Assembly (NCBI RefSeq): GCF_000217935.1
Contig: NZ_AFHI01000027.1
Span: 1 to 32,267 of the forward strand
Direction: 5' to 3'
Length of the DNA stretch: 32,267 bases
DNA from: Rheinheimera sp. A13L
Lineage (GTDB): Bacteria; Pseudomonadota; Gammaproteobacteria; Enterobacterales; Alteromonadaceae
The notes beneath the pieces were generated by a model, which saw nothing but the letters and a program-made list of their open reading frames with translations, had not been told where the DNA came from and did not search any database. A program made the position numbers and the translations under genes. Positions 5,297 through 9,432 of the stretch are shown here, one piece after another (position 1 is the first letter of the stretch; each line of letters begins with the position of its first letter).

Positions 5297-5767
5297 ATGA
5301 TGACTAAACAATCCAAACAAGAAGCACTGATCCAGGCCTTTAAATCCTTGCTGAAGGAAGAACGTTTTGGCTCACAAAGCGATATTGTTGATGCGCTGAA
5401 AGCTGAAGGCTTTGACAACATCAGCCAATCAAAAGTGTCCCGTATGTTAAGCAAATACGGCGCAGTGCGCACCCGTAATGCCAAACAGGAGATGGTGTAT
5501 TGTTTGCCGCCTGAATTGGGCGTGCCCACCACCAAAAGCCCGTTACGACAATTAGTGCTGGATATAGAACATAACGATGTGATGATTATTATCCGCACCA
5601 GTCCAGGTGCTGCTCAGCTGATTGCCCGTTTATTGGATTCTGTAGGTAAAGCCGAAGGCGTGCTTGGCACCATTGCAGGTGACGACACCATCTTTATCGC
5701 ACCTACCAGTGTTAAAAATATCAACTTCACCTTAAATAAGGTGACTGAGTTATTTGAAAAGGTCTGA
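5297..5767 (+). CDS. argR: Arginine repressor ArgR
   Basis: A hexameric, arginine-responsive repressor of arginine biosynthesis and co-factor for XerCD recombination at cer-like sites. The 156 residues equal E. coli ArgR length. The N-terminal winged helix contains the recognition segment [20 protein letters not shown]; the C-terminal oligomerisation and arginine-binding domain has [14 protein letters not shown] and [11 protein letters not shown] with the ligand-binding Asp pair. The start has two consecutive ATG codons (5297 and 5300) and no strong ribosome binding site. The last 18 bases overlap the end of the convergent peroxidase gene. Confidence 0.97.
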
Positions 5768-6679
5768 TCCGGCCTGCTCTTCCAGGAAATTGATCGAGGG
5801 GGCAAAAAAAGCAGCCCCCGCTTCCACCTGACAATAATCCAACAGCAAATCTGCGGCATCGCTGTGCTGACCCAACCGGGTTGCCAACCATAACGGCGCA
5901 TCCAAAGCATTGGCTGAAAAACCAATGGAAATCATACCTTGCGAACGAATGTCTGCCACCGGCATATTTTGCCAGAGGATCTGTTTACGGCCAGTTTCAT
6001 TCTCTAAAGCTGCTTTATCGGCGTGCGAATTGGCCTGACGTTGAGCTGACGGCAGCAACTGCCCATCCAGCTTGTTCCGGCCCATCACAGCTTCCTGCTC
6101 TGGCATAGTCAGCTGTTGCCAGCGTTGTAAGTCATACTGATACCTCAGCATATAGACATAGCTGCCAGCACTCATTGGGCTTTTGGGTTCATTGCTGATC
6201 AGCGCACATAAACGACGTAGTTTGCCTTTCGGGTTATCAGGCGTATCGTGAAACCCGGTCAGATTACGGCCATCCAGATAACGAAATGCGTGCACTTGTT
6301 CGTACAAGTCCACATGTTGCTGCAGCAAATGGTAAATCTGCTGGGTAGCAATATGAATGACATCAAAACGGTCAGCACGAATTTGAATCAACAGATCAGG
6401 AGCTACTACAGGTAAATCGGCAAGATTGTCAGTAAAAGCAGGCCAAGGCTGTGGTTGATGCTCCGGATACAAATGCGGCCAGTAATTCTGCCCTATAGCC
6501 ACAACCACATTCAGCATGGCCTCAGAAAATTGATCAGACAAGCGCTCTGCCAGCATGGGTACTTTAGCCAACTGCAAGCGTACATAGTGCTCATGACCAT
6601 CCAGGGCATTCAGCAGCACATAACAACAATGCAAGTTTGCTTCGGCACAAATGCCTGATTGTTCCCGGGCCATATTCAT
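5750..6679 (-). CDS. DyP-type (dye-decolorising) haem peroxidase, divergent active site
   Basis: A cytoplasmic-looking protein of 309 residues (no signal peptide) in the size range of YfeX-like DyP peroxidases, which oxidise diverse substrates with H2O2. Family landmarks are [12 protein letters not shown] (residues 135-145), the GR(N/T)K segment, NSHAD with a candidate proximal haem ligand His219, NMP at 238-240, and FFAPSINFL at 291-299. Two usual features are changed. The GxxDG motif reads GFHDT (142-146; Asp145 kept). The Arg expected just before xNMP is Trp236, whose codon TGG is one base from CGG. Peroxidase activity is therefore uncertain. GGTGAG fits a start at the second ATG (6673) better than at 6679. 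Alternative reading: a haem protein with another activity. Confidence 0.82.
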
Positions 6680-6778: not shown

Positions 6779-6796
6779 TGTGAGATATATCTCACA
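6779..6796. promoter_or_regulatory. UvrY/GacA/VarA-type response-regulator box upstream of csrB
   Basis: A perfect 18-bp palindrome, TGTGAGATATATCTCACA. It matches the known E. coli/Salmonella UvrY (SirA) inverted repeat upstream of csrB. Its centre lies about 180 bp before the inferred csrB start, a distance similar to that in E. coli. The spacing between TGTGA and TCACA is 8, not the 6 of a CRP site. Confidence 0.8.
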
Positions 6797-6955
6797 AATC
6801 AGTAAGCCAATGCAGCATTTTCTGCAAGCAACACCCAGACAGAAAACACATAAGCAATTGATTCAAAACAACTTACAATCAAATGAGGACAAGTTACAAT
6901 AATATTTCACTACAAGTATTTAACAAACATGGTCCTTTTCCGACGCTAAATGTAC

Positions 6956-6961
6956 GATAAT
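6956..6961 (+). promoter_or_regulatory. -10 element of the probable csrB promoter
   Basis: GATAAT lies six to seven bases before the first base of the RNA's 5' hairpin (CGTC...GACG from 6967). No clear -35 hexamer is visible 17 bp upstream, which fits a promoter that depends on an activator. Confidence 0.5.
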
Positions 6962-6966
6962 TATTT

Positions 6967-7301
6967 CGTCGCTGGATGTGACGGCTCAACAAGATGTTAA
7001 GCAGGACAAGCTACAAGATGTAGCAGCAGGACGCTGGGATACCAAAGGATTGTGCAGGGTAGCACAAGGATGAACAGGACAGGCTCCGGATTGAGCATAC
7101 ATCTTCAGGATGAAGATTCAAGGAAAAGGACTCTGCCGGAGGCAGCAGGTACTCTCAGGACGAGAGTTAAATGGAGAAGGATGCTGCGGGAATGCAGCGG
7201 GGATTGTTCAGGACGAACACAGGGATGATCCATCAGGGATAGTGGTTGGAAGGACGCCACCAAGTTTTAGGGGCCGCGAAGTTCGCGGCCCGTCTTATTT
7301 T
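6967..7301 (+). ncRNA. csrB: CsrB-family small RNA that titrates CsrA/RsmA
   Basis: About 335 nt with no plausible coding frame. It contains 22 GGA triplets, many as AGGA or GGGA, and several are in loops of small hairpins: GTTC-AGGAC-GAAC (7206-7218), ACTCTC-AGGAC-GAGAGT (7151-7167), ATCTTC-AGGAT-GAAGAT (7101-7117), GCTGC-GGGAAT-GCAGC (7183-7198), and the 5' hairpin around the GGA at 6974. It ends with a strong intrinsic terminator. This architecture is diagnostic of CsrB/CsrC/RsmZ RNAs, which bind many CsrA dimers and free target mRNAs from CsrA. A perfect UvrY-type box lies upstream. The 5' end is inferred from the -10 and the first hairpin; csrA itself is not in the window. Confidence 0.93.
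7271..7301 (+). terminator. Intrinsic terminator of csrB
   Basis: The stem GGGCCGCG/CGCGGCCC with loop AAGTT is followed by GTCTTATTTT on the plus strand. It marks the 3' end of the CsrB-like RNA. Confidence 0.92.
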
Positions 7302-7548
7302 CAGACCAACCGCTTTTATTTTTCACTATGTCTCACGTCAAAAATCCGCCTGACTATTCATGCACCAGTTTAATGCACTGATTGCGCCACTCTGACGCAC
7401 TTTAGAGTTTTCGCACTAACAATAATGTTGTTTTTTTCACCAGGGCTCTTTTCCTGTTTCAAAACAGCTGTTAGATTACAGGCGTTCTTTGCAAAATGAT
7501 TTGGCGACTGCACTAAAACAGCGCACAGGTCCGTGGCTAAGACCACAA
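7302..7548. other. Intergenic stretch without a recognised gene
   Basis: About 250 bp between the csrB and amtB terminators. I see no supported coding frame; a 77-codon minus frame runs through the amtB terminator and has no family match or ribosome binding site. It contains several GCAC/GTGC words, including two degenerate NtrC-like palindromes (see findings). Confidence 0.6.
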
Positions 7549-7581
7549 GAAAAAACCCCGGAAGCTTGCGCCGCCGGGGTT
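7549..7581 (-). terminator. Intrinsic terminator of the glnK-amtB transcript
   Basis: On the minus strand the stem AACCCCGG/CCGGGGTT (plus positions 7554-7561 and 7574-7581) is followed by six T. It lies about 135 bp after the amtB stop, so the transcript has a long 3' untranslated region. Confidence 0.88.
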
Positions 7582-7632
7582 GTCTGATAAAGACAAAGGA
7601 CAAGGATAGACGAATTTGGTGGTACGGGTTTA

Positions 7633-7677
7633 GTTGCCAAGACCAACTGCTACTTGCGTAGCGGCTGGCTTGGCAAC
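7633..7677 (-). other. Long imperfect hairpin in the amtB 3' untranslated region
   Basis: The outer 9-bp arms GTTGCCAAG/CTTGGCAAC are perfect and enclose a further pairing, CCAACTGCTAC with GTAGCGGCTGG (one mismatch and G-U pairs), around a four-base loop. Located between the amtB stop and its terminator. It could stabilise the mRNA end or be part of a 3'-derived small RNA. Confidence 0.6.
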
Positions 7678-7715
7678 CAGCTCCTGAGAAGCCCCACCGG
7701 CTCTTCCCAGGCTGC

Positions 7716-8987
7716 CTACTTTACTGTCGATACAAATTCAGGATAGGCTTCTACACCACACTCTGAACGATCAACACCTTCATATTCTTCCTGCTCTGAG
7801 ACTCGGATACCCATAGTCATTTTCAAAGCAAACCACACTACAGAGCTGGCCACAAAAACCCAGACAAAAATAGTCGCAGCACCAGCCAGTTGACCCATTA
7901 ATGAGGCCGACTCTTTGGTCAGAGGAACAATCAATAATCCAAATAAACCTACAGTACCGTGCACAGAAATCGCACCTACAGGGTCATCAATTTTTAACTT
8001 ATCTAAGGCCAGAATAGAACCGACCACTAACACACCTGCAATGGCACCGAAGATAGAGGCTTCCAGTGGTGTTGGCATTGAAGGTTCGGCAGTAATAGCC
8101 ACTAAGCCCGCTAAAGCACCGTTTAACGCCATGGTTAAATCAGCCTTTTTGAACAACAGCATAGACAAGCCAATGGCAGCAATAGTTCCCGCAGCAGCAG
8201 CAGCATTGGTATTTAAGAACACCACAGCTACAGCATTAGCATTGGCAATATCACCTAACTTCAGTACTGAACCACCGTTAAAGCCAAACCAGCCTAACCA
8301 CAGAATTAAAGTACCTAAAGCAGCGAGTGGCATATTAGAACCAGGGAAAGCGTGAGCTTTGCCGTCTTTGCCATATTTGCCTTTACGGGCACCTAACAGG
8401 ATAACACCAGCTAAAGCCGCAGCAGCACCAGCTAAATGTACTATGCCTGAACCTGCAAAGTCAGAGAATCCTAAGTCGCCTAAGCTGTATAGACCAAATA
8501 CAGACTGGCCGCCCCAGGTCCATGAACCTTCCATTGGATAGATAAAACCTGTCATCACTACAGCAAAAGTCAGGAAAGCCCATAACTTCATACGTTCAGC
8601 CACAGCACCAGACACGATCGACATAGCAGTGGCAACAAAAACTACCTGGAAGAAGAAATCTGAAGCTTTGGAATAAATAGCTTTACCTTCAAAGCCATTT
8701 TCGCGCTCAGCGAAACTGGTTAAGGTTTGGGCTACATCCACTTCACCTATACCTGATAAGAAGTAGCCACCGCCGTACATCAGCTGGTAACCACAGACCA
8801 GATACATCACACATGACACTGAATACAACACCACGTTTTTAGTCAAAATTTCAGTGGTATTTTTTGCCCTGACTAAACCAGCTTCCAGCATGGAGAAGCC
8901 AGCGGCCATCCACATCACTAAAGCACCACACACCAAAAAGTAGAAAGTGTCCATCGCAAACTGTAAATGATAAATTTGTTCCTGCAT
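7716..8987 (-). CDS. amtB: Ammonium transporter
   Basis: A 423-residue inner-membrane channel of the Amt/Rh family that conducts ammonium/ammonia, gated by GlnK. About 11 hydrophobic segments are visible. Marks include FSMLEAGLVRAKN near residue 31-43, the twin pore histidines in GIVHLAGAAAALAG and ISVHGTVGLFG, and GWFGFNGGS. The N-terminus goes directly into the first membrane segment, without the cleavable leader of E. coli AmtB. The tail after the last helix (RVSEQEEYEGVDRSECG) is the region that binds GlnK in relatives. The ATG at 8987 has AGGGG upstream and lies 10 bp after glnK, so the two form one operon. Confidence 0.97.
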   Translation of the reverse strand: MQEQIYHLQFAMDTFYFLVCGALVMWMAAGFSMLEAGLVRAKNTTEILTKNVVLYSVSCVMYLVCGYQLMYGGGYFLSGIGEVDVAQTLTSFAERENGFEGKAIYSKASDFFFQVVFVATAMSIVSGAVAERMKLWAFLTFAVVMTGFIYPMEGSWTWGGQSVFGLYSLGDLGFSDFAGSGIVHLAGAAAALAGVILLGARKGKYGKDGKAHAFPGSNMPLAALGTLILWLGWFGFNGGSVLKLGDIANANAVAVVFLNTNAAAAAGTIAAIGLSMLLFKKADLTMALNGALAGLVAITAEPSMPTPLEASIFGAIAGVLVVGSILALDKLKIDDPVGAISVHGTVGLFGLLIVPLTKESASLMGQLAGAATIFVWVFVASSVVWFALKMTMGIRVSEQEEYEGVDRSECGVEAYPEFVSTVK

Positions 8988-8997
8988 GATTTACCCC

Positions 8998-9432
<435 letters not shown>

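Follow-up and report, generated by a model that had tools for sequence, protein, structure and literature searches.

What lies between a DyP peroxidase gene and glnK-amtB in Rheinheimera sp. A13L, where a gene-only annotation shows nothing? The gap belongs to the window analyzed here, the whole 32,267-nucleotide stretch of contig NZ_AFHI01000027.1, and a sequence-only reading had placed a CsrB-family regulatory RNA in it. Gene coordinates confirm the neighbors named in that reading: dyp (5750-6679), amtB (7716-8987), and glnK (8998-9420) are all encoded on the minus strand. The putative RNA gene (6967..7302, plus strand) is oriented divergently from dyp and convergently with amtB. Because a -10-like hexamer, GATAAT, is found at 6956..6961 on the plus strand, we infer that the RNA starts at 6967/6968; this hexamer was read from the sequence, was left unreported by a sigma-70 scan, and has no good -35 element that we could see nearby. 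The other end corresponds to the tail of an intrinsic terminator, the stem-loop of which (7271..7291, plus strand) had been described as strong. That description suits the 9-bp stem, which contains 8 G-C pairs and all nine pairs of which are invariant in 12/12 homologues, but not the T tail that follows it, which is broken (GTCTTATTTT).

By direct count, 22 GGA triplets fall within 6967-7302 on the plus strand (from the first, at 6974, to the last, at 7252), exactly as claimed earlier. A scan of the window returned a plus-strand mean of 3.1 GGA per 336 nt and, outside the RNA region, maxima of 9 (plus strand) and 11 (minus strand). The resemblance in length to E. coli CsrB also holds (about 335 nt versus 369 nt), and the two RNAs have 22 GGA triplets each.

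No Rfam family reaches its curated gathering cutoff anywhere in the window. Under permissive settings, the covariance-model search that had been proposed as a check aligned RF00018 (CsrB) over its full model length with 7083-7323 (42.4 bits, E 5.2e-10), with a second, weak piece at 7024-7066 (10 bits); since the curated gathering cutoff of RF00018 is 71 bits and was missed by the RNA region, we assign the RNA to the functional class and not to the curated family. This region is nevertheless the best RF00018 match in the genome, which comprises 4.52 Mb in 71 contigs. The next one, C51:26085-26119 (35 nt, 20.7 bits, E 0.0019), covers model positions 312-346 only, is located between convergent genes, and has at most 5 GGA per 200 nt around it; we rejected it as a second CsrB copy and regard it as a shared terminator. 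At E <= 10, RF00018 finds matches in 8 of 14 control genomes, so weak scores are uninformative and only a strong E value counts; at E <= 0.01, E. coli was the sole match among the 14 named control genomes. At this same threshold, 34 of 60 relatives' genomes match, nine of them above the cutoff, and none of those nine is a Rheinheimera genome. Among the Rheinheimera matches inspected, none reaches 71 bits, the best (59.8 bits) belonging to a group with a longer form of the RNA, described below. A match at E <= 0.01 or better was nonetheless obtained in 20 of the 22 Rheinheimera genomes (16, plus G008, G012, G018, and G021 in a further search). For the other two, G019 yielded an rsmX match only (E 0.019) and G017 yielded nothing at E <= 0.1; both still carry the upstream palindrome and dense GGA.

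The genome also encodes the proteins expected to act with such an RNA. There is one match to CsrA, the best match to UvrY is 62% identical to the E. coli protein (358.8 bits against an NCBIfam cutoff of 280), and the best match to BarA is 41% identical to its E. coli counterpart (1078.4 bits against a cutoff of 890). Upstream of the RNA, a UvrY/GacA-type palindrome, TGTGAGATATATCTCACA (6779..6796), is the only sequence in the window to match TGTRAG-N6-CTYACA without a mismatch, with its center about 180 bp 5' of the inferred start. Of 22 Rheinheimera loci, 20 carry it unchanged; the copy in G003 has a single mismatch, and in G020 its expected place is past the contig end. Comparison with the K-12 sequence showed a palindrome at an equal distance upstream of E. 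coli csrB, where, in PMC4682653, the UvrY site is mapped at -183/-182 and both a second, partial UvrY site (TGTAGGAGA, 5 bp downstream) and a role for IHF are reported. In the Rheinheimera locus, AGTAAG (6801..6806, plus strand; compare TGTAGGAGA) is a possible second UvrY half-site, kept in position in 17 of 18 aligned loci, with AGTAGG in L033. Farther downstream, an IHF-like site on the minus strand (AATCAATTGCTTA, 6851..6863) perfectly matches the IHF consensus, WATCAANNNNTTR. This site has no more than one mismatch to that consensus in 12/12 short-form loci, four of them perfect, while among six long-form loci scanned, a minus-strand IHF-like site was found at that place in L031 only.

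The same palindrome invites another explanation, in which a genuine CsrA-binding RNA would be governed chiefly by a factor other than UvrY, for example through a CRP-type site, given that the ends of the palindrome (TGTGA at the start and TCACA at the end) resemble CRP sites. We consider this very unlikely. In the CRP consensus, TGTGA and TCACA stand 6 positions apart, whereas here they are separated by 8, and a similar palindrome precedes a second RNA elsewhere in the genome (see below). Moreover, the 18-mer fits TGTRAG-N6-CTYACA exactly and does so at the distance described for the UvrY site of E. coli csrB in PMC4682653.

The RNA and its position are conserved among relatives. A search with the DyP protein identified eight related contigs, including those of Rheinheimera sp. 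YQF-1, R. faecalis, Rheinheimera sp. 1928-s, R. soli, R. tangshanensis, and R. mesophila, the other two being metagenome-assembled genomes. DNA similarity to the RNA itself was detected in 12 of 60 relatives' genomes (its own included), all Rheinheimera, at 87 to 100% identity. The RNA sits between dyp and amtB in all 18 loci compared, with dyp only 48 to 54% identical in six of them, and a GGA-dense stretch (21 to 30 triplets in 336 nt), located by means of a 22-nt block at the amtB end, is present beside that end in 22/22 Rheinheimera genomes.

Could the GGA density merely reflect composition? Mononucleotide shuffles of the bases of the RNA region (n = 10,000), which are G+A rich, contained 10.4 GGA on average and 22 at most, and composition therefore accounts for part of the count. 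That the stretch is nothing but purine-rich DNA or a decayed copy, devoid of CsrA function, is extremely unlikely, however, in view of how the triplets are placed and preserved. Loops with closing stems of four or more Watson-Crick pairs contain eight of the 22, whereas 300 shuffles in which GGA was held in place gave 1.7 on average and never more than 5; the earlier statement that many triplets sit in loops of short perfect hairpins thus stands as far as "many" is concerned, but they do not form the majority. The plus strand as a whole is predicted to fold at -110.4 kcal/mol (z -3.87), a value equaled by none of 100 shuffles. Twenty of the 22 GGA triplets do not vary among the 12 close homologues, compared with 62 of 181 triplets not overlapping GGA; counted by column, this amounts to 63/66 versus 149/224 (Fisher p 4.5e-7, with columns treated as independent). 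A lack of conservation of the GGA-hairpin pattern had been named in the sequence-only reading as grounds for its refutation, and the GGA triplets proved to be conserved. These sequences are so close that covariation among them is slight, with both positions changed in 2 of 84 consensus pairs. The palindrome, for its part, is kept in all 21 loci that reach it if the copy with a single mismatch is included. Finally, a short or repetitive protein gene is scarcely conceivable here: ATG frames of 87 codons (7110-7373) and 58 codons (7052-7228) do exist, but the former reads through the terminator, there is no long reading frame in the region, single-base indels separate the homologues at alignment columns 152, 195, and 234, and the conserved feature is the GGA triplets, spread over all frames.

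Judged at the sequence level, then, 6967-7302 combines an excess of GGA, their placement in loops, their conservation, an upstream UvrY/GacA-type site, and a genome encoding CsrA and BarA/UvrY, as a CsrA sponge should. The CsrB-type reading is the best supported because of the RF00018 match, the conserved position and GGA triplets, the distance of the palindrome, and the presence of csrA, barA, and uvrY. It is highly probable, in our view, that 6967-7302 represents a CsrB-type small RNA gene of Rheinheimera, the product of which is predicted to sequester CsrA, in keeping with the original proposal. That proposal had overlooked the palindrome, the long form of the RNA in other Rheinheimera, and the second RNA, the latter two of which are described next.

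The RNA occurs in two forms. The short form, found in 12 Rheinheimera genomes, measures 330 to 332 nt and has 21 to 23 GGA triplets; the long form, found in nine, measures 541 to 706 nt, has 33 to 43 GGA triplets, and is mostly built of a tandem unit of 49 to 52 nt. In the remaining genome, G020, the RNA is interrupted by the contig end, with an array of the long-form kind. Each unit of about 50 nt contains two hairpins with GGA and, in the linkers, two more GGA triplets. Between genomes, the stem letters of the unit vary on both arms (for example, AGCTC/GAGCT, GCTTC/GAAGC, and GCTAC/GTAGC) while the loop GGA is kept, differences that we read as apparent compensatory change. Two further observations were made at these loci. 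In L030, L031, L032, L033, L036, and L037, a GGA-poor segment of roughly 150 to 200 nt, absent from the window's short form, is located between the array and the terminator, and in L030, L032, and L033, the stretch from the RNA terminator to the amtB end contains runs of short simple repeats (CCAACTAT, CCAATTCA, and CCAACA types).

The palindrome was found in three other places in the genome. Two of these (C71:91096-91135; 22 bp apart) lie upstream of a second RNA (G000:C71:91263-91556, equivalent to L056 1668-1961; plus strand), which has 8 GGA in 294 nt. The third (C71:334484-334501) was taken as a chance match, as it is located inside a 542-codon frame of L058 and no GGA-dense stretch adjoins it. 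The second RNA is present in 22/22 Rheinheimera genomes; a strict palindrome precedes it in 18 of 20 loci, all 20 preserve six of its GGA triplets, and in 11 of 45 consensus pairs both positions have changed. The gene order in L056 is yihA, a cytochrome-like gene, the second RNA, another gene, and yihI, the last of which is clipped by the locus end and scores 77.2 bits, below the cutoff of 90. At E <= 1, neither Rfam CsrB nor CsrC matched in L056, nor did RF00084 (CsrC) match in L093 or L095, and the RF00084 piece seen in L089 is 26 nt long (15.2 bits, E 0.57). In a single genome (L086), the second RNA carries a 21-nt tandem duplication (alignment A3 columns 167-187) that adds one extra GGA. 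The second RNA is likely a CsrC counterpart, an assignment less certain than that of the CsrB-type RNA, and its occurrence where E. coli has csrC suggests an origin of this locus before the enterobacteria.

On the amtB side of the CsrB-type gene, the amtB 3' UTR (7543-7715, minus strand) contains a structured element made up of two covarying stem-loops, a possible pseudoknot, the 22-nt block, and a terminator. The block (7592-7613 in plus-strand coordinates) is exact in 22/22 Rheinheimera genomes and absent from the rest of the 60 relatives' genomes. In the alignment of the element, both positions have changed in 18 of 45 pairs, 97.2% of cells are paired, and none of 500 shuffles was as good; the pseudoknot loses two pairs in 6 sequences, which may be a matter of register. 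No Rfam family matches the element at gathering, and when 148 genomes of the order were searched with a model of it, the only two matches were in Rheinheimera. We regard the element as a candidate 3' UTR-derived sRNA. Pairing between the block and the CsrB-type RNA was considered and rejected as a composition effect: in two of the eight homologues tested, the pairing beat that of 95% of shuffled blocks, and the window's own block failed (fraction 0.395). The proximity to the ammonium-uptake genes had been left as possibly due to chance; with the pairing test mostly negative and no supporting link found, the position of the RNA beside amtB is probably incidental.

We propose that BarA would phosphorylate UvrY and that UvrY-P would bind the palindrome at 6779-6796, perhaps aided by IHF bending the DNA between palindrome and promoter. 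UvrY-P would then turn on an RNA of roughly 335 nt, running from near 6967 to the terminator at 7271-7302, whose hairpin loops and single-stranded linkers could present approximately 20 GGA sites to several CsrA dimers, and CsrA would thereby be drawn off its mRNA targets. In this role, the RNA would likely be the main CsrA antagonist of a genus common in freshwater and marine environments, encoded in a gap that stays blank under the curated Rfam cutoff and that automatic annotation tends to overlook. More tentatively, and with slightly less than even confidence, we speculate that Rheinheimera CsrB is a modular CsrA sponge, the capacity of which shifts by gain or loss of units of about 50 nt, with the likeness of units within a genome reflecting concerted evolution of a dosage-tunable array and with the sponge specializing into a strong copy and a weak one at the old csrC position. 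A natural series of orthologous sponges with 21 to 43 GGA at a fixed locus makes the relation between CsrA-site number and sponge strength testable.

Among open-licence PMC papers, we found no publication on CsrB in Rheinheimera. The Rheinheimera RNA shares with E. coli CsrB (b4408) the AGGA hairpin loops, the intrinsic terminator, and the 18-bp palindrome centered about 180 bp upstream, but there is little likeness in sequence, and its score against RF00018 is subthreshold. The loci differ as well: the former lies between dyp and amtB, whereas csrB is located between yqcC and syd, a placement given in the sequence-only reading and confirmed in K-12. CsrB-family copies of vibrios are described as changing loci in PMC6262261. 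E. coli CsrC (b4457) resembles the second RNA in its position between yihA and yihI and in its upstream UvrY-type palindromes, but is richer in GGA (14 in 246 nt versus 8 in 294 nt). The CsrB-family sRNA Pf1 of Pseudoalteromonas fuliginea, a member of the same broad marine group of Gammaproteobacteria, carries some 21 GGA triplets and likewise has a GacA-type site; according to PMC9927453, it is hardly similar to E. coli CsrB in sequence, its matches are reported within Pseudoalteromonas only, and glycogen assays in E. coli showed that it acts on CsrA. In Shewanella oneidensis, CsrB1 and CsrB2 are likewise preceded by a TGTAAG-N6-CTTACA box, and, in PMC3171408, dependence on BarA/UvrY is shown for them; they are two adjacent copies of ~420 nt at another locus, in contrast to the one dyp-amtB RNA and the GGA-poor RNA elsewhere in Rheinheimera. 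Since CsrB-family RNAs unlike that of E. coli in sequence are thus known in both Pseudoalteromonas and Shewanella, the putative Rheinheimera sponge would be a fresh example of an established class.
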